Source: Gemmatimonadota bacterium
Lineage (GTDB): Bacteria; Latescibacterota; UBA2968; UBA8231
Reading direction: 5' to 3'
Length of the DNA stretch: 8,207 nt
Assembly: GCA_018673255.1 (NCBI GenBank)
Contig: JABHDC010000094.1
Span: forward strand, 1-8,207
A program made the position numbers and the translations under genes. Of the stretch, positions 843 through 8,207 are shown one piece after another (the stretch's first letter is position 1; each line of letters starts with the position of its first letter). The notes under the pieces were generated by a model that saw nothing but the letters and a program-made list of their open reading frames with translations, was not told the DNA's origin and searched no databases.

Positions 843-3212
843 TCAGAATGGCTTGGGATCGGTGAGCAATCCCAGTTCATCGGCCCGAGCCAGGGCCGGC
901 AGCCAGTAGCGGTAGAAATGCGGCGGCAAATCGTGGACCGCCCCTTGCAGCATTCCCCGATGCACGAAGATGCGCTGTAACTCGGCGTATCCCACATCTG
1001 CATAACGTGGTTCGCCCGTCCTGGCCGTCAGAAACATGAGGGCCTCGAACCAGAAATCCGGCTCCGGCTCATAGTAGTTGCGGAAGGGGCTCGTGTTCTT
1101 GACCGAGAACCCCTCGGGCCGGAACAGTCCGGTTTCGTCGAAGTCGCGATCGACCATCTGTTTCAGTGCCGTCCAGGATCGCTCTGACCCGGTCACCAGA
1201 TGATGTCGCATGAGGGCGCACGAGAGAATCCCATCGGACAGCGACGTGGCCGCCTTCACCACACCGGGTGGAGAATAGGCGTCGTATGTGTAGTGCCCAT
1301 CTTCTCCACACCAATCCTGCAACCAGTCGAGGATGGTTTCGCACGTGGCCAGATACCTCTCATCGCGGTAACACTCATACATCCGCGACATCGCCATCAG
1401 CGGATAGCCGGCGACTCGTGTCAGGGTCTTGACCCGGTGATCCCCTCGGTCGATGGCAGCCATGAAGTGTTCGGCCCGTGCGACGGCCACCTCTTCGGCC
1501 CGGCGGTATCCCGACATGAGTCCGAAGAAGAGCGGACCATCGATCCACTCGTGACAGATTGAGGGACCGCGCATGGCTCCGTGTTTGGCAAAGTGGTATC
1601 GCTGCGCCCCGATCCGCCACGCACTCTCATCGTCGTGAATCGTGTCCACATCGATCTGATGGTGGATGATCGGCTCGACGATTTCCCAGATGCTGGCCTC
1701 GCCAGTACGAAGCATCTGCATCATGAGGGCCCAACCCTTGTCCATCTCATTGTTCTTCCACTGGCCACCTCGACCCGGCGTCCAGTAGTCGCCGTAGTTC
1801 AAGAACTGGTAACCGAGACTCGGATCGACTTCGACGTTGAATGTGTGGCTCTGCATGGCCGACCGCAGCACATATTCCCACCAGCGGTAGCGATCGGGCT
1901 GATAGCGGAACACGGGACCGAAGGCACCCGTATCGATCATCCAGTTGCGGGTGGCAACCATGGGCATCGGTTGCTTCTCAAAACCGGCGGTGAAAGCCAG
2001 GGCACGATCTCGATCTGCATCCGCCTCGTGGAGGCCGATGATGAGTTCGTGCGTCTTGGCCACGCCACGATGCCACTGGAGTGGCTCGGCCCAATCGGCA
2101 TACAGTGACAGATGGGCCGCGTCTGTGCTGACAGCCATCTCTTTGGGTGCTTGATGCCAGAAGCGTCGACACTGGAGACTGATCCGCCGCTGGCCATCAC
2201 TCAAGACTGCCGCAGCAGGGACCAGATTGCACCAGTTGGCCCCACCCCGCCGCTGCACCTGTCCCCCATCATCAGCTGGCCGGATTTCATACTGCGGATC
2301 TGCCCGTCGCGGCTGCTCCGGTGTCTCTTGCTCACCCTCAGCCGGTTCCCATGCAGGAAACTCCATATCCACCAGCCCGACGCGCAGACTGCGATACCTG
2401 CCGACGAGTTCATCCACGTGAGAAACGTGATTGCCCACATCGACGGAAGAGACCAGGAAAGCCTCTGCATCAACCCCAAGATCGGGACGGAGACTGATTT
2501 TGAACTCCTGCAGATGTACGACGCGCCGACGCATGCGGTGCGTGAGGGTCACGAAGACGCGCAGCCAGGGCACGCCGGCATAGGCATAGATCCGAATCGT
2601 GGCATCGAAGCCGGGCGTGCCATCACCCCCGAGAGCCAGACCGTCGACGCGTAACACAACCCGCACGGGGCCCGGCTCTTCGATCTCGATTCTTCCACCG
2701 GTGCGCAGCTCGTATTCCACGTCATCTACGCGCACAGTTGCCTGTATCCCGCCATCGGGAATAACCGCGTGATCACCGACAAAGGCGCGCGCAAATGGGA
2801 GGGGGCCGGAGGGAGTGATCGCCACCGATCGCTCGCCCATCTCGATGAAATAGGCTCCATCTGCCGTCTCGCGAACACAGACGGGTTGTTCAGGTGACGG
2901 ACGCTGTGAACTCTGGGACCAGCTCAGCTGCAAGCGGTGATCCGAATCCGCCGCCAGATCCGCGAGGCTGTCCACCAGGATCCATTTGGCCGATCCGTCG
3001 GGCCAGGTGAGCATCGTCCGCGTCTGCAGCGGCTGGGGATGGCCATCGCTCGTCAGACTCAGCAGATGATCGCCGGACACGGCCCCTTCTGGGAACGGGA
3101 TGCCGAGGGTCCAGGGCCAGCCCGGACGGTTGATCCCAAGAGGCTCTACAATCGATAGCTCGACCGATGTCGGCACGTTCACTTCAGCCGGTTCCTGCCC
3201 AGACTCAATCAT
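843..3212 (-). CDS. PcRGLX/YetA-like (RIFT-barrel, PL26-type) protein, putative rhamnogalacturonan lyase homologue
   Basis: A 789-aa protein whose layout resembles the exo-rhamnogalacturonan lyase PcRGLX/YetA family. Seen: an N-terminal beta-rich region opening with EPLGINRPGWPWTLGIPFPEG and the family-like WPDGSAKW segment (residues 70-77), then a helical C-terminal half typical of an (alpha/alpha)6 toroid. That half has NNEMD (487-491), HHQIDVDT, and HEWIDG (554-559) followed by a helix repeat. Family knowledge: such proteins act on pectic rhamnogalacturonan-I oligosaccharides or related uronic-acid glycans. Inference: no signal peptide is present (N-terminus MIESGQEPAEV), so it probably acts in the cytoplasm on imported oligosaccharides, as proposed for YetA. 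The start is supported by AGGGGA (complement of 3217-3222) four bases before the ATG. It is divergent from the peptide/kinase region. Substrate and activity are unproven; it could be another uronate-processing enzyme with the same fold. Confidence 0.72.
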   Translation of the reverse strand: MIESGQEPAEVNVPTSVELSIVEPLGINRPGWPWTLGIPFPEGAVSGDHLLSLTSDGHPQPLQTRTMLTWPDGSAKWILVDSLADLAADSDHRLQLSWSQSSQRPSPEQPVCVRETADGAYFIEMGERSVAITPSGPLPFARAFVGDHAVIPDGGIQATVRVDDVEYELRTGGRIEIEEPGPVRVVLRVDGLALGGDGTPGFDATIRIYAYAGVPWLRVFVTLTHRMRRRVVHLQEFKISLRPDLGVDAEAFLVSSVDVGNHVSHVDELVGRYRSLRVGLVDMEFPAWEPAEGEQETPEQPRRADPQYEIRPADDGGQVQRRGGANWCNLVPAAAVLSDGQRRISLQCRRFWHQAPKEMAVSTDAAHLSLYADWAEPLQWHRGVAKTHELIIGLHEADADRDRALAFTAGFEKQPMPMVATRNWMIDTGAFGPVFRYQPDRYRWWEYVLRSAMQSHTFNVEVDPSLGYQFLNYGDYWTPGRGGQWKNNEMDKGWALMMQMLRTGEASIWEIVEPIIHHQIDVDTIHDDESAWRIGAQRYHFAKHGAMRGPSICHEWIDGPLFFGLMSGYRRAEEVAVARAEHFMAAIDRGDHRVKTLTRVAGYPLMAMSRMYECYRDERYLATCETILDWLQDWCGEDGHYTYDAYSPPGVVKAATSLSDGILSCALMRHHLVTGSERSWTALKQMVDRDFDETGLFRPEGFSVKNTSPFRNYYEPEPDFWFEALMFLTARTGEPRYADVGYAELQRIFVHRGMLQGAVHDLPPHFYRYWLPALARADELGLLTDPKPF

Positions 3213-3353
3213 GTCGTCCCCTGCGGATTCTCATTCTTTCTGGCGGCGTAGGGCGATAAGCAATGGGCATGGCCCCATCCCGTCCAGATGAGCCTGCCCC
3301 AGGTTCCCACCATCGCCCCTCGAAAGGATCCCGTCCTATCGACTGATGCCTGT

Positions 3354-3368
3354 TGGCGAATTTCGCCA
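3354..3368. repeat. 15-bp perfect palindrome, operator-like
   Basis: TGGCGAA-T-TTCGCCA is a perfect 7-bp inverted repeat around one central base. It lies 142 bases upstream of the start of the lyase-like gene and 34 bases from the four-box array. The size and symmetry suit a dimeric repressor or activator site; no regulator is identifiable from the window. Confidence 0.4.
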
Positions 3369-3401
3369 CTTGCCGATGGCAGATCCGCCGATCTCTCAAA
3401 G

Positions 3402-3442
3402 TGTACAGAATCTGATCACCTATGCTGATCACTGAGTGTACA
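3402..3442. promoter_or_regulatory. Four-box A-B-B-A palindromic array, candidate enhancer (UAS)
   Basis: Four hexamers, each itself palindromic, lie in mirror order: TGTACA (3402-3407), TGATCA (3413-3418), TGATCA (3426-3431), TGTACA (3437-3442). Gaps are 5, 7 and 5 bases, so the block is symmetric about base 3422. Each outer/inner pair forms a 17-bp unit TG-N2-CA-N5-TG-N2-CA, the same 6-5-6 geometry as NtrC-type sites, with half-site centres 11 bp (one turn) apart. The array centre is about 232 bases upstream of the predicted sigma-54 start. Inference: tandem binding sites for an enhancer-binding protein, or an operator shared with the divergent gene. Confidence 0.55.
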
Positions 3443-3461
3443 GGGGTCTATCTATTTGTTT

Positions 3462-3474
3462 TATCAACGTGTTA
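3462..3474 (+). promoter_or_regulatory. IHF-consensus site 1
   Basis: TATCAACGTGTTA matches WATCAANNNNTTR at every specified position and is preceded by an AT-rich run (3450-3462), as is common for IHF sites. It lies between the four-box array and the 18-bp dyad, about 180-192 bases upstream of the predicted sigma-54 start, where a bend could shape the enhancer region. Binding is inferred from the match only. Confidence 0.45.
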
Positions 3475-3479
3475 TGACC

Positions 3480-3497
3480 GACTGGACCACTCCAGTC
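3480..3497. repeat. 18-bp inverted repeat, candidate activator site
   Basis: GACTGGA-CCAC-TCCAGTC is a perfect 7-bp inverted repeat with a four-base centre. Its midpoint is about 165 bases upstream of the predicted sigma-54 start, inside the usual -80 to -200 range for enhancer-binding protein sites. It differs in sequence from the four-box array, so it may bind a different regulator. As RNA it could fold as a small hairpin, but it lies upstream of the predicted start. Confidence 0.4.
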
Positions 3498-3572
3498 CAT
3501 ACCAGATCGTCCGTTGCATAGGCATATGGCTACTGGAAGAACAGTTTGACTAAAGTCTTCAGAAAACTTACA

Positions 3573-3585
3573 CAACCAATTGATT
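3573..3585 (-). promoter_or_regulatory. IHF-consensus site 2
   Basis: On the minus strand AATCAATTGGTTG matches WATCAANNNNTTR at every specified position, with an A-rich flank on its 5' side (complement of 3586-3590). It lies about 69-81 bases upstream of the predicted sigma-54 start, between the candidate enhancers and the promoter. That is where IHF bends DNA at many sigma-54 promoters. Confidence 0.55.
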
Positions 3586-3627
3586 TTATTTCGCTTACAC
3601 TGCAGAAGTGGACACATTCTGGAGATG

Positions 3628-3643
3628 TGGCACGAGATGTGCA
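3628..3643 (+). promoter_or_regulatory. Sigma-54 (-24/-12) promoter
   Basis: TGGCACG-AGAT-GTGCA matches the RpoN consensus TGGCACG-N4-TTGCW at 11 of 12 specified positions. The near-invariant GG (3629-3630) and GC (3641-3642) are present with exactly 10 bases between them; the one deviation is G for the first T of TTGC. The predicted transcription start is close to 3654, giving a leader of about 35 bases before the ATG at 3689. This rules out translation from the upstream in-frame ATGs at 3608 and 3650 if this is the only promoter. Confidence 0.78.
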
Positions 3644-3676
3644 AAGGAGATGACAACAGACAGCAATACACTCAAC

Positions 3677-3682
3677 GGAGAG
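3677..3682 (+). promoter_or_regulatory. Ribosome binding site deciding the peptide start
   Basis: GGAGAG lies six bases before the ATG at 3689, a standard spacing. The in-frame ATG at 3683 directly abuts this motif and the one at 3650 directly abuts another GGAG, both too close for efficient initiation. The start at 3689 is therefore preferred. Confidence 0.6.
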
Positions 3683-3688
3683 ATGATC

Positions 3689-3844
3689 ATGGCCACCGCA
3701 CTCAGCATTCAGTCAACCATCCTGACACCGTCCCGCCAGCGTGAGATCCAAGTTCGCCGAATGCATACGCAGCACAGCCTTCGTACCCAGATCGTGTCCG
3801 GACTTCAGACAACGATCAAGGTCATCAAGGGCTGGTATCTGTAG
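3689..3844 (+). CDS. 51-aa cationic mini-protein under sigma-54 control, unknown function
   Basis: I do not recognise this protein. It begins MATALSIQST and ends IKVIKGWYL, followed by TAG at 3842-3844. Seen: net charge about +6 (seven Arg/Lys, one Glu, two His), six Gln, many Ser/Thr, no Cys and no Asp. There is no predicted membrane span, no cleavable signal peptide and no obvious double-glycine leader. Arg residues cluster at 16-32, and the last nine residues are hydrophobic/basic with a terminal Gly-Trp-Tyr-Leu. Support for a real gene comes from outside the reading frame: a near-perfect sigma-54 promoter 45 bases upstream, a well-spaced GGAGAG, and a strong hairpin 55 bases after the stop. 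The AUG could be two codons earlier (3683). Possibilities include a secreted or modified peptide precursor, a signalling or regulatory mini-protein, or a small nucleic-acid-binding protein; nothing seen here chooses between them. It could also be a decoy reading frame in a sigma-54-driven small RNA. Confidence 0.55.
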   Translation: MATALSIQSTILTPSRQREIQVRRMHTQHSLRTQIVSGLQTTIKVIKGWYL

Positions 3845-3899
3845 CCTGGATCTCCGGCTCCTTGTGCAGCGCCACCTGGGAACAGGCCCCTGGGTTCGT

Positions 3900-3935
3900 T
3901 CCGGCGACGCGGTATCCCTGTGCCGCGTCGCCGGA
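3900..3935 (+). terminator. Strong GC-rich hairpin after the peptide gene (terminator-like, no U tract)
   Basis: CCGGCGACGCGG (3901-3912) is perfectly complementary to CCGCGTCGCCGG (3923-3934) across a ten-base loop. An extra T-A pair lies outside (3900/3935) and a possible G-U pair inside, giving a 13-14 bp stem. It begins 55 bases after the peptide stop codon. No T-run follows (ACGGCGTCTG), so it is not a canonical intrinsic terminator. It may define or protect the 3' end of the peptide mRNA, or partly insulate the downstream kinase gene. The rest of 3845-4047 holds no gene I can support and no clear promoter for the kinase. Confidence 0.5.
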
Positions 3936-4047
3936 CGGCGTCTGCCCCTCGATCATGTCGTGAACGGTTCGCAGCGGCTACGTATCTTGAAGCAAGCGAT
4001 CCGATGTTCGTCCCGCTCTGCTTCCTCACCCCCGGGTTGATGGTACG

Positions 4048-7000
4048 ATGCGCCGACTGATCCGTTCCCTCATCAGCACCAGTGCTAGGGCCGCCTTACT
4101 GGACCTGCGACTCGCACTTGCCCTGTTCGCCCTGACAGCCGGCGCCCTGCCGCACAACGCCTTCGCCGAGACCATTGGTCGAGTCGCCTTCTGGGTGCCC
4201 AGCGAGCGACACGACGAATTCTCTCAGGTCTACGACGCCGAAATCGAGCCATTCCTCCTCGGTATCGGCTTCCGGCCGGCTCATGCTGAAGAACGTACTA
4301 CCCTGGACAGCATATTCTCCCGCCTCTACAGCTTCGACTCGCCTGGTGACATACTGGCCGCCAGAGACTCGATGCGCTCGCGCTCGGATCTCATCGAACA
4401 GTTTCAGCGATACGGCCGGATGTTCGGCTCCACGGAGATCTCTGGCGTCCTCAAGTCCTCATTCCGCATCTACAGCACCGATGTTGGGGAGTTGCCCCGG
4501 ACACCCCTCGGCCCGGGAAGTCGTCGCCCTCTGGGGCCGGGACATGGCCAGTGGAAGACCTTCGATGTCACCGACGGCCTGGCTGGTCCCATGGTCCAGG
4601 CCATGCTGCAGGATCGTCTGGGTCAGATGTGGTTTGCCACGAAAAACAATGGGATCAGTCGATTCGATGGGCAGACCTGGCTGACACTCGGTGTGGATGA
4701 CGGGCTTCCCTCCAACGACGTGGAAGCACTCTTCGAGGACAGTGATGGCCGACTCTGGGTGGGAACGACCCATGGCCTGGCCCAGGTCGCCGATGATGCG
4801 GTGGTCGCCGTCCACGGCCCGCACAATGGGCTGCCTCAAGACCGCGTCCGACAGATCATCGAGGGTCCCGACCGAACGTTGTGGGTGGGAACAGTCGGCG
4901 GTGGCGTAAGCCGCTACGACGGCACATCCTGGATACAGGTCAGCCTCACTGATGCAGGTCCAAAGAACCTGATCATCGATCTGGCCTTCGATACAGTGGG
5001 TGATCTGTGGGCAACGACGGCTGTCGGTATCAGCAGATACGATGGGACCTCCTGGTCGGAAGTCACCGTCGATGGTGTCGATAGCTCGATGCAATTCGCC
5101 ATGCATGGCAAGACTGTCAACGCACTTCTCATCGACCAGCGAGGCGATCGTTGGTTTTCCTTCGGTAACCACCGCACTGGGCTGGCTCGCCTGGGGATGG
5201 ATGGGGCCTGGACGATCTTCAATGATGAGGACATGGGCGGGCTCAACCACGTGGTCAGTCTCTCGCTGGATGCACACGGGCGGGTGTGGGCAGGCACACT
5301 CGACCGCGGCGCCCTGGTCTATGATGACGGCAACTGGCGGGCCCTGGACTCGGGCCACGGCCTGGCGCACAACTCAGTGTATCAGGTACTGGAGGATGAC
5401 GAGGGGTATCTGTGGTTTGCCACCATGGGAGGCGCTTCCAGGCTCGACGAACAGGGTCTAAGCGTCTTTGGCCAAAGTGATGGACTGCCGGCGGCCAACA
5501 TTCACCAGCTGCGACTCGACACGACGGGCGCCCTCTGGATCGCCCATGGCGCCAGTGGTGCCGGCGTCACGATCCTGGCCGACGATACACTGACCACCCT
5601 CACGATGGACGACGGCCTGCCCGGCAATGTCATTGGCCGGACCTATGCCGATCGTGAGGGTCACACCTGGCTCCTGGGTGACGGTGGTGCCGTATCGATT
5701 CAGGGCGATTCCATTACCGCCATCGGAACCGATCAGGGCCTGCCATACAGTGGCGCCTACTCGATCATCCAGGACCATCGCGGTGACTTCTGGTTCGGAA
5801 CCGGTTACGGCCTGGCCCATTTCGATGGTCGGCGGATGCAGTCCTATGGCCCGGCCGATGGGCTGGCAAGCGACGATGTCCTCGATTTGCACGAGGACGC
5901 CGACGGCAATCTGTGGATTGCCAGCATGGCAGGTGTGACTCGATACGATGGTGAACATTTCCAGGCGATCCGTGAGGCGGATGGACTGCCCAACGAATAT
6001 GTCGCCGACATCACAAGTGGTCCCGATGGTCGGGTCTGGTTTGCGACGCACGGTGGCGTCGTCGTCTATGACGGCGAACAGTTCGCAGCGCTGACAGCCG
6101 ATGATGGTCTGACCTCAAATGATGTGCACGCCGTTGTCATCGATGGCGAAGACCTCTGGGTTGGCACCGATGGTGGGGGCGTCAGTCGGTATGATGGTCG
6201 TGTCTTCCAGAGTCTGACAGCCAAGGATGGACTCCCCGACAACGTCAGCCTGACAGTAGCTGCCGATGAGGGTGGCGTGTGGATCGGTGGCAGTTCGGGC
6301 CTCTCGTACCACCGACCCAGATTCTCACCCGACGTCCCGGTCCTGATCGACGCCGTCGTCGCTGGCAAGCGTTACGGCGGCGACGAACAGATCGAGGTTG
6401 CCTCGAGCGTTGAGTTGATGGCTTTTGAATTCCGCGGGATCAGCCTGAAGACCCTGCCCGGCCAGACCGTCTTCTGCTACCGCCTCGTGGGATATGACGA
6501 CCAGTGGTATCACACGCGAGAGCATCGCGTGGAATACACCGATCTGCCCCGAGGAGACTACCGTTTCGAAGTCCAGGCCGTCGATCGCGATCTGAATTAC
6601 TCGGCATGGCCCGCCTCCATCGGCGTCGTCGTGAGATTGCCCTACGAGCGTATCGCCTGGGTCGCGTGCCTGGTGATCGCCCTGGGTCTGATCATCTGGC
6701 AGGGCTGGCGCGTCATGCGACGCGATCACCGCCTGCAGGAATCCAACCGAGAACTGGAAGAACAGGCTGCAGCGCTGGAGAAGGCGCACGGCGAGGTCGT
6801 ACTGGCCAGCCAGGCCAAATCAGCCTTTCTCGCCAACGTCTCGCATGAACTGCGCACGCCGATGAATGCGATCATCAACTTCTCCTCTCTCATCCTCGAC
6901 CGGGCCTATGGTGACATCTCCGAGGACATGCGTGATGCAGTAGAAGAGATCGATCGCAACAGTGACAGCCTGCTGTCACTGATCAACGACGTGCTGGACC

Positions 7001-7551
7001 TGTCGAAGATCGAGGCCGGTGCGATGCAACTGCAGATGTCGGCCGTGGCCCCTGCTTCCTGCATCGACACCGCCGTCGCCACGATGGAACACCGTGCCTC
7101 GAGCAAGGGGCTGGCCCTGCGACAGGAGGTATCCGACTCACTGCCTGACCTGTGGGCCGATGAGCGCCGTCTGACCCAGCAGGTGCTGATCAATCTGGTC
7201 GAGAATGCGATCAAGTTCACCAGTGATGGCGAGATCAGCGTGGGTGCAGCCACCGCCGGAGAAAGCGGTGAAGGAAATGGCAATGGCCGCAGAGGCACCG
7301 GAGCCGTCCATTTCTGGGTGCAGGACACGGGCAAGGGTATCCCTACCGGTGAGATCGGCCGCGTCTTCCAGCCTTTCTACCAGGTGGATGGATCCAGCAC
7401 ACGCGATGTGGGTGGCACCGGGCTGGGCCTGGCGATCGTGCGACGATTCGTGGAAATGCACGGTGGCCGAATCTGGCTCGAGAGTGCCCCGGGGACCGGT
7501 TCCACATTCCACTTCACCATCCCCCAGGCGCCACAGGCGGTGCTCGCATGA
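4048..7551 (+). CDS. Two-component beta-propeller sensor histidine kinase
   Basis: An 1167-aa membrane sensor kinase. Domains in order: signal peptide 1-40 (likely cut after NAFA); an alpha/beta region about 41-130 resembling a NIPSNAP/dimeric alpha-beta barrel domain; a Pro/Gly-rich linker containing PLGPG twice; 14 two-component-regulator-propeller repeats (about 176-760, typical unit DGLPSNDV...LWVGT...GVSRYDG), enough for two seven-bladed propellers; a Y_Y_Y domain (about 785-858); one TM segment (about 869-889); a short coiled coil; HisKA with phospho-acceptor His933 in HELRTP; HATPase_c with N-box Asn1053, G1 DTGKG (1093-1097) and G2 GTGLGL. All catalytic motifs look intact. By analogy with Bacteroides hybrid two-component sensors, the propellers plus Y_Y_Y sense an extracytoplasmic ligand, often a carbohydrate, and signal across the membrane. 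Unlike those hybrids it has no fused receiver or AraC output; the receiver is the overlapping next gene. The start is chosen for the signal peptide; its ribosome binding site is weak. Confidence 0.93.
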   Translation: MRRLIRSLISTSARAALLDLRLALALFALTAGALPHNAFAETIGRVAFWVPSERHDEFSQVYDAEIEPFLLGIGFRPAHAEERTTLDSIFSRLYSFDSPGDILAARDSMRSRSDLIEQFQRYGRMFGSTEISGVLKSSFRIYSTDVGELPRTPLGPGSRRPLGPGHGQWKTFDVTDGLAGPMVQAMLQDRLGQMWFATKNNGISRFDGQTWLTLGVDDGLPSNDVEALFEDSDGRLWVGTTHGLAQVADDAVVAVHGPHNGLPQDRVRQIIEGPDRTLWVGTVGGGVSRYDGTSWIQVSLTDAGPKNLIIDLAFDTVGDLWATTAVGISRYDGTSWSEVTVDGVDSSMQFAMHGKTVNALLIDQRGDRWFSFGNHRTGLARLGMDGAWTIFNDEDMGGLNHVVSLSLDAHGRVWAGTLDRGALVYDDGNWRALDSGHGLAHNSVYQVLEDDEGYLWFATMGGASRLDEQGLSVFGQSDGLPAANIHQLRLDTTGALWIAHGASGAGVTILADDTLTTLTMDDGLPGNVIGRTYADREGHTWLLGDGGAVSIQGDSITAIGTDQGLPYSGAYSIIQDHRGDFWFGTGYGLAHFDGRRMQSYGPADGLASDDVLDLHEDADGNLWIASMAGVTRYDGEHFQAIREADGLPNEYVADITSGPDGRVWFATHGGVVVYDGEQFAALTADDGLTSNDVHAVVIDGEDLWVGTDGGGVSRYDGRVFQSLTAKDGLPDNVSLTVAADEGGVWIGGSSGLSYHRPRFSPDVPVLIDAVVAGKRYGGDEQIEVASSVELMAFEFRGISLKTLPGQTVFCYRLVGYDDQWYHTREHRVEYTDLPRGDYRFEVQAVDRDLNYSAWPASIGVVVRLPYERIAWVACLVIALGLIIWQGWRVMRRDHRLQESNRELEEQAAALEKAHGEVVLASQAKSAFLANVSHELRTPMNAIINFSSLILDRAYGDISEDMRDAVEEIDRNSDSLLSLINDVLDLSKIEAGAMQLQMSAVAPASCIDTAVATMEHRASSKGLALRQEVSDSLPDLWADERRLTQQVLINLVENAIKFTSDGEISVGAATAGESGEGNGNGRRGTGAVHFWVQDTGKGIPTGEIGRVFQPFYQVDGSSTRDVGGTGLGLAIVRRFVEMHGGRIWLESAPGTGSTFHFTIPQAPQAVLA

Positions 7552-7955
7552 TCAGCCTGCCTGCTGAATTGGGTGCCGTCGTCCTCCACATCGAGGACAA
7601 TCCATCGAATCGCAAGGTCGTCCAGCACATCCTGCGACGGACATCCTATCGCCTGATCGAAGCCGAGGACGGCGAGACGGGACTGGACCTGGCGCGCGCG
7701 CAGAAGCCCGACGTCATATTACTCGACATGCAGTTGCCAGGAATGAGTGGCTACGACGTCGCCAAGGCACTGAAAGCGGACACCCGGACACAGGGGATTC
7801 CAGTCGTGGCCGTGACCGCCTCTGCCCTGGCCGGCGATGACGACAGGGTCTTCGACGCCGGCTGTGATGATTATCTGGCCAAACCCTTTCGACCACACGA
7901 CCTGCGCGAGCGCCTCGCAGCCCATTTGCCGGATGGAACCTGCAGCAGTGCCTGA
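7548..7955 (+). CDS. Single-domain response regulator (CheY-like receiver)
   Basis: A 135-aa stand-alone receiver domain. Acidic pocket Glu16-Asp17 (HIEDNPSN), phospho-acceptor Asp60 (ILLDMQLPGMSG), switch Thr90 (AVTASAL) and Lys112 (YLAKPF) are all present, so it should be phosphorylatable, most likely by the preceding kinase. Its ATG overlaps the kinase stop as ATGA, implying translational coupling and matched expression; AGGCGG lies seven bases before the ATG. The polypeptide ends about 15 residues after the receiver fold with no DNA-binding or enzymatic output domain. It must therefore act by protein contact or as an intermediate in a phosphorelay. Confidence 0.93.
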   Translation: MISLPAELGAVVLHIEDNPSNRKVVQHILRRTSYRLIEAEDGETGLDLARAQKPDVILLDMQLPGMSGYDVAKALKADTRTQGIPVVAVTASALAGDDDRVFDAGCDDYLAKPFRPHDLRERLAAHLPDGTCSSA

Positions 7956-8061: not shown

Positions 8062-8207
8062 ATGCCTGATCCCGCCCGAATCCTCGTTGTCGACGACAAT
8101 CCCTCGAATGTGAAGGCTCTGCGCCAGCGCCTGCTGACCGATGGCCATGATGTTCTTGAAGCGACGTCCGGCCAGGAAGCCCTTGATCTGGTCGCCGGAC
8201 AATCGCC
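8062..8207 (+). CDS. Response regulator receiver protein (3'-truncated by window edge)
   Basis: The first 48 codons of a second receiver-domain protein, beginning MPDPARILVVDDNPSN. The Asp11-Asp12 acidic pair and the following helix (VKALRQRLLTDGHDVLEATSGQEALDL) are typical of receiver domains. The phospho-acceptor Asp, expected near residue 54, lies beyond the window, as does any output domain. It follows the kinase/receiver pair on the same strand 106 bases downstream, so it is likely part of the same signalling cluster. The frame stays open upstream to an ATG at 7933, inside the end of the previous gene. That would add a 43-residue Ser/Glu-rich N-terminal extension, but the ribosome binding site argues for 8062. 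The output type is unknown. Confidence 0.85.
   Translation, partial: MPDPARILVVDDNPSNVKALRQRLLTDGHDVLEATSGQEALDLVAGQS

Follow-up and report, generated by a model that had tools for sequence, protein, structure and literature searches.

Comparison of related genomes suggests that a sigma-54-dependent transcription unit encoding a small protein of 51 amino acids serves as dedicated output for the two-component system whose genes directly follow it. We assign this reading a probability of roughly 0.7, a figure that covers the circuit and excludes any guess about how the protein acts. The unit was found in an 8,207-nucleotide stretch of DNA, referred to here as the window. The original prediction had described a stand-alone gene; the gene is instead tied to an operon of sensor, receiver and activator genes, and the unit extends beyond 3628..3844, upstream to an enhancer-like element and downstream to a conserved block with a hairpin (Table 1).

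Table 1. Features of the small-protein unit and of the adjoining signalling genes in the window
Feature	Position	Strand	Details and basis
Candidate enhancer TGTACA-N5-TGATCA-N7-TGATCA-N5-TGTACA	3402..3442	.	Shared by four loci; motif chosen after inspection
Sigma-54 (-24/-12) promoter-like site TGGCACGAGATGTGCA	3628..3643	+	Predicted +1 = 3654; consensus match and relatives
Ribosome binding site GGAGAG	3677..3682	+	6 nt 5' of ATG; sequence
51-aa small protein gene, C-terminus VIKGWYL	3689..3844	+	Relatives L001, L055, L144, P0048, P0049; coding-type substitutions
3' conserved structured block	3862..3945	+	Stem 3901-3912 / 3923-3934, loop UCCCUG 3915-3920; conservation and fold
1167-aa sensor histidine kinase (Reg_prop propeller, Y_Y_Y, HisKA, HATPase_c)	4048..7551	+	Domain matches
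135-aa single-domain response regulator	7548..7955	+	Domain match
Start of presumed sigma-54 activator gene (receiver domain)	8062..8207	+	Remainder beyond window; L001 gene in same place

A first protein search with the ORF product returned the window's own cluster alone. The neighbouring PcRGLX-like gene gave a route to locus L001, a contig of the MAG Gemmatimonadetes bacterium SI074_bin69 (G001), where a 50-aa ORF that is 44% identical and ends in KILKGWYL lies between the same two neighbours, behind the site TGGCACGACTTATGCA. A profile built from these two rows detected two further clusters, P0048 and P0049, both with the KILKGWYL end and both available as protein sequences only. In locus L055 (G049), the site TGGCACGACATGTGCA, a 50-aa ORF ending in KFAAMWYL and a hairpin are found in this order upstream of a close sensor gene (E 1e-48), and a profile including the L055 row led to a fourth locus, L144 in G002. 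Because the two-row profile did not detect the L055 and L144 proteins, and the search detecting G002 used a profile that already included the L055 row, the relationship of the window type to the L055/L144 type rests on synteny and position, length, start, the WYL end and shared DNA elements.

In L001 and L055, as in the window, promoter, ORF, hairpin and sensor gene follow one another in this order, the L055 contig reaching as far as residue 210 of the sensor, and G002 has a promoter remnant, the ORF and the hairpin on a contig that ends before any sensor gene. At E <1e-10 the gene was present in three of the 64 genomes of the phylum, two of which were themselves profile rows; this list of genomes includes G003 and G004, whose loci carry the names Candidatus Latescibacterota and Latescibacteria. 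No further homologue was confirmed when genome and viral collections were scanned with the single sequence, and a plasmid search with 3213-4047 gave no match. The two-row profile also gave 34 rows besides the G001 gene, at E 0.0076 and weaker; 12 of the 14 loci fetched for these rows were inspected, no WYL end was seen in the stretches read, the best upstream sites matched at 7-9 of 12 positions, and these 12 were dropped as chance matches. A match in G046 (E 0.066) was also dropped as chance, and L087, which combines a 10/12 site with a short frame containing KGLWY, was judged to be a coincidence.

The promoter-like site of the window, TGGCACGAGATGTGCA, matches the consensus TGGCACRNNNNTTGCW at 11 of the 12 specified positions, with exact spacing between GG (3629-3630) and GC (3641-3642), and the predicted start of transcription leaves a 35-nt leader up to the ATG at 3689. 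The match, the spacing, the leader of about 35 bases and a well-placed GGAGAG had all been proposed for this DNA and were confirmed in the sequence. Taken alone the site is suggestive, because sites with at least 11 of 12 matches and the GG/GC pair occurred in 11% of shuffles of the whole window and, when the intergenic region 3213-4047 was shuffled by itself, in 1.0% of cases; sites with two mismatches or fewer numbered 2 in the window, against 1.98 expected by chance. The site is convincing because it is conserved in L001 and L055, whose counterparts each match at 11 of 12 positions. In G002 the counterpart is altered to TGGCACGACATGTTCA, in which the -12 GC reads TC and the -12 G is lost, and the promoter is kept in three of the four DNA loci (the window, G001 and G049). 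The predicted control of the small-protein gene by sigma-54 is supported by these sites, by the presence of rpoN (Sigma54_DBD) in all three relatives tested and by the activator gene found within the G001 locus.

The G002 copy (L144, approximately 4923-5218) combines a changed -12 element and two mismatches in the hairpin stem with an intact ORF. This copy may be decaying, because the -12 element reads TC and the stem carries the two mismatches; early decay or a shifted promoter are both possible.

The ORF is preceded by GGAG 6-7 nt 5' of the ATG in L001 and L055 as well as in the window. Its public cluster, P0001, is a 64-aa gene-caller version that starts at 3650, 5' of the predicted +1, and the L001 relative is listed as 50 aa. 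The ATG at 3689 is the better start, because the L001 relative starts at the equivalent position and the P0001 start precedes the +1, which agrees with the earlier claim that the ORF is real and that gene callers might place its start too far upstream. All six aligned members end in WYL and the preceding G occurs in four of them, and the GWYL end that had been proposed as conserved is thus upheld for WYL and not for an invariant glycine. The joint conservation of promoter, ORF and C-terminus was found in the window, L001 and L055, and fails in G002 at the promoter.

The pattern of nucleotide differences indicates that the ORF is under coding constraint. Between the window and G001, the last 22 codons and the stop differ at 9, 3 and 14 sites at codon positions 1, 2 and 3, respectively. 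These 22 codons show 8 residue changes against the 14.5 expected from an equal number (26) of uniform random changes with transition bias ignored, and none of 5000 trials was as low; over the whole ORF there were 28 residue changes against 36.1 expected (P 0.0016). On the same type of expectation, G049 and G002, which differ at 3, 6 and 12 sites at the three codon positions, show 9 residue changes against 13.5 (P 0.016). Codon changes thus lean synonymous in both locus pairs. Stops or frameshifts beside a conserved promoter, which the original prediction had named as evidence against a protein, were not seen: the frame is intact, with its WYL end, in all four DNA loci (the window, G001, G049 and G002), and G002 presents the reverse, with the ORF kept and the -12 element changed.

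The window protein has a net charge of +6 (K/R minus D/E), and values range from +4 to +6 in five members. Its best 19-residue Kyte-Doolittle mean is 0.46 (0.41-1.15 across the five members), and by this measure none of the five presents a clear transmembrane candidate. For the last 22 residues, the helical moment did not exceed that of shuffles, 8-19% of which were as high. The model of the protein's structure is poor (mean pLDDT 60) and suggests, with low confidence, a long C-terminal helix. No member scored above a Pfam or NCBIfam cut-off, the only trace being a match of one of the six members, that of G002 (L144), to DUF3742 (PF12553) at 17.1 bits against a cut-off of 27.2. By these searches the family is undescribed, as had been claimed, and it stands in a known kind of regulatory arrangement.

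The genes downstream of the unit encode two-component signalling proteins. The window kinase is 71% identical to its L001 counterpart, and the L001 operon encodes a kinase of 1180 aa, a receiver protein of 135 aa and a 508-aa NtrC-family activator with the domain order REC-Sigma54_activat-HTH_8 and the motif GAFTGA. The histidine-kinase domains and the activator are unseen in G049 and G002 because the contigs end. Comparison thus documents the linkage to the sensor gene, and in G001 the activator gene as well. Passages of PMC6615313 state that most predicted sigma-54 targets co-localise with activator genes and that 170 of the 263 activators have a single operon under their control.

For the N-terminal domain of the kinase (window 4162-4605, RVAFWVPSERHDEF...), Pfam gave no match at E 0.01. 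When 47 genomes of the class were searched with this domain, 30 matches were obtained in 9 genomes at E 1e-10 or better, and the domain is expanded in G041, with 15 matches. At L109 (G001:C53, 1722-5201), the N-terminal domain and the propeller of a 1159-aa paralogue run straight into a sigma-54 activator domain (GAFTGA), which makes this protein a one-component counterpart of the sensor system, and in several G041 loci ETGTGK and/or GAFTGA occur about 2.6 kb after the N-terminal domain. At L085 (G043, 6980-13160), a sigma-54-like site (10/12), a PD40-propeller protein, a terminator-looking hairpin, a propeller kinase and an activator follow one another, which is the layout of the small-protein unit with a different output gene; the G043 activator is 49% identical to that of G001. 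On the other side of the unit, the divergent PcRGLX-like gene (window 843-3212, minus strand) has Pfam PcRGLX matches and 46 relatives, and the cluster P0002 shares 81% identity with its product. It lies beside the unit in the window and L001 and is absent from that place in G049 and G002; through this neighbour, a link of the sensor to sugar polymers is possible.

The candidate enhancer lies at similar distances from the promoter in all four loci. In the window, G001, G049 and G002, respectively, the first TGTACA is at -226, -223, -211 and -211 and the first TGATCA at -215, -212, -190 and -190. The upstream neighbour is the PcRGLX-like gene in the window and G001, whereas G049 and G002 have another gene there, whose product we read as an RNA methyltransferase; because the element is kept in the four loci despite these different neighbours, it goes with the small gene. 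The pattern TGTACAN{5,15}TGATCA had 5, 3, 3 and 6 matches in G001, G049, G002 and G043, against 0, 1, 0 and 0 for a reversed control, and the six matches in G043 occur although the small gene was not found in that genome. The TGTACA/TGATCA element is accordingly presented as a candidate binding site for the activator.

Sigma-54 usage was also surveyed in the related genomes. The pattern TGGCACGNNNNNTGCA occurred 18 times in G001 and 16 times in G049, whereas its reversed control gave 3 matches in each, and by this excess both genomes seem to use such promoters. Loci were available for inspection at 30 of these 34 consensus sites; at 8 of the 30 no ORF was found by the filter used, and at 4 the genes that follow are, as we presume from their translations, PspA-, AmtB-, Hsp20- and thioredoxin-like. 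Consensus sites before very short ORFs, as at L119 (G049:C132, 40 aa) and others, could mark further small sigma-54 genes. Among the 29 sensor-type loci (the 30 N-terminal-domain matches without that of the G001 gene itself), 6 had a forward site of at least 10/12 within 1.6 kb upstream, one of them being G049. Because 5 of the 28 loci left without G001 and G049 had such a site, against about 3 expected from the measured rate of 0.074 per kb and strand, no general rule for sensor promoters is claimed; L110 and L111, both among the sensor loci with a site, are near copies of each other.

A block that is better conserved than the ORF lies after its stop codon. The 3' block is identical between the window and L001 at 76 of 85 columns (89%), compared with 89/160 (56%) for the ORF, 23/47 for the leader and 23/102 for the stretch after the block; the kinase gene is identical at 2372 of 3446 columns (69%), and its best 84-column stretch reaches 86.9% (mean 68%). 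Sense-strand folds had z-scores of -3.94 (window), -3.45 (L001) and -4.03 (L055). The stem is present in all four loci, with two mismatches in G002, and the loop UCCCUG is found in all four. Over these four sequences, 92% of the pairs in the 13-pair stem are standard, and four stem pairs carry changes on both sides, compared with none in slid controls. The number of pairs changed on both sides was reached by 93 of 500 shuffles; for the percentage paired, for the cells with changes on both sides and for the covariation score, the figure was 5 of 500. Since the four rows come from two lineages, the covariation is support for the hairpin and not proof of it. A coding explanation of the block was judged unlikely because two single-base indels fall within it, and a repeat element was rejected: the one full match to the block in G001 is the locus itself, and the other 12 had E values of 0.02 or worse.

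The conservation of this block raises the question of whether the transcript acts mainly, or also, as a regulatory RNA whose 3' block with the UCCCUG loop works in trans, the ORF being a passenger or a second function. An identity above that of the best kinase stretch and above that of the ORF, the invariant loop and the pairs changed on both sides all point in this direction, and there are precedents in CrcZ/CrcY and GlmY, which depend on sigma-54 activators, and in an RNA derived from the 3' UTR of a glutamine synthetase message. The coding constraint on the ORF argues against it, as do the loss of block sequence between the two lineages beyond the stem pattern and loop, the failure of any Rfam family to come near its gathering score in window 3200-4100 or L001 7400-8000, and opposite-strand folds that are themselves better than most shuffles (z -2.05 and -2.19 in the window and L001). 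The leading competitor, and a serious one, is a regulatory RNA role of the block, either by itself or in addition to the protein, and we nevertheless consider it unlikely that the transcript works mainly or also in this manner. A dual-function transcript, in which a lineage-specific protein with a WYL end and a 3' RNA exposing its UCCCUG loop to other messages would both be local outputs of the propeller kinase system, is improbable to a similar degree.

Alternatively, the block may be a mere terminator or attenuator, and the small protein may have a non-regulatory job of its own, for example as a membrane-active or stress peptide. In each of the three loci that have the sensor gene, the hairpin is found between that gene and the ORF, immediately behind the latter; in L055 it is followed by TTTCGTATT with a short T-run, and the cationic character of the five members would suit such a peptide. 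No T-run was found to follow the hairpin in the window, where 3213-4100 was scanned for terminators without a hit, or, by eye, in L001, a plain terminator would need no 89% identity that includes unpaired parts, and the unexceptional helical moment speaks against a membrane-active peptide. We regard this combination as rather doubtful, and the block itself may still serve as a terminator. That a chance ORF lies behind a chance or unrelated sigma-54-like site is very improbable: sites this good do arise in 11% of shuffled windows and short ORFs are common, but the site, the ORF, the WYL end and their position are kept jointly in other genomes, and the codon pattern and the comparative data contradict it.

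The preferred reading, a dedicated output of the adjacent two-component system, would operate as follows. The propeller histidine kinase would respond to a signal, probably sensed on the outer side of the inner membrane, and hand phosphate on to the receiver protein, to the NtrC-family activator or to both. Bound to the TGTACA/TGATCA element some 200 bp upstream, the activator would open sigma-54 polymerase at 3628-3643, giving an mRNA of about 290 nt from approximately 3654 to the hairpin near 3934-3945. We infer this order of signalling, the activator binding, the transcript ends and the sensor topology from the gene arrangement and the conserved elements. Translation from 3689 would yield the cationic 51-aa protein, which lacks an obvious membrane segment and has the WYL end. 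The leading guess, made by analogy with MgrB and held at odds well short of even, is that the protein acts back on its own pathway, on the kinase or the activator, as a feedback or tuning partner. The role of a signal- or stress-released effector, put forward in the original prediction, is a fair guess.

Known systems resemble this arrangement in part. CbrA/CbrB-CrcZ of the Pseudomonadaceae and GlrK/GlrR-GlmY of enterobacteria likewise connect a kinase and a sigma-54 activator to a short sigma-54-driven transcript, and glmY lies beside its kinase and activator genes. Unlike the CrcZ and GlmY transcripts, which act as RNAs, the window unit contains an ORF under coding constraint, and in contrast to those systems it is located upstream of the kinase gene; its predicted transcript is a coding one that may have a second function, and it came near the score of no described RNA family in Rfam. 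Another parallel is provided by glnA, which is under sigma-54 control. PMC9731577 reports an RNA that is released from the 3' UTR of the glutamine synthetase (glnA) mRNA, a case in which the 3' end of a message serves as a regulatory RNA; for the window block, such an activity is a conjecture. Control of CrcZ/CrcY by CbrB, together with an Azotobacter cbrB-crcZ intergenic region and co-transcript, is described in portions of PMC6292655, and control of glmY by GlrR in part of PMC4591121.

Among small proteins, MgrB (47 aa), a feedback inhibitor of PhoQ, restrains the two-component system to whose regulon it belongs, according to an extract of PMC8404706; MgrB needs its transmembrane region, whereas the window protein has no clear candidate for one, and feedback here is a guess. 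Excerpts of PMC1569441 describe the PrsK/PrsR kinase and NtrC-like activator, with a sigma-54 motif before single-gene operons and large intergenic regions. The PEP-CTERM products in those excerpts have a short C-terminal motif; the window protein has the WYL end and, by eye, no PEP motif.

In conclusion, a narrow literature search on Latescibacterota with sigma-54 returned nothing, and the phylum concerned includes records named Candidatus Latescibacteria and Latescibacterota. If the preferred reading is right, a small protein family with no match above the Pfam or NCBIfam cut-offs would act as local output for a sensor system of this phylum. The unit would then offer a concrete, testable circuit from signal to small protein, together with a 3' RNA element whose conservation exceeds that of the preceding ORF.
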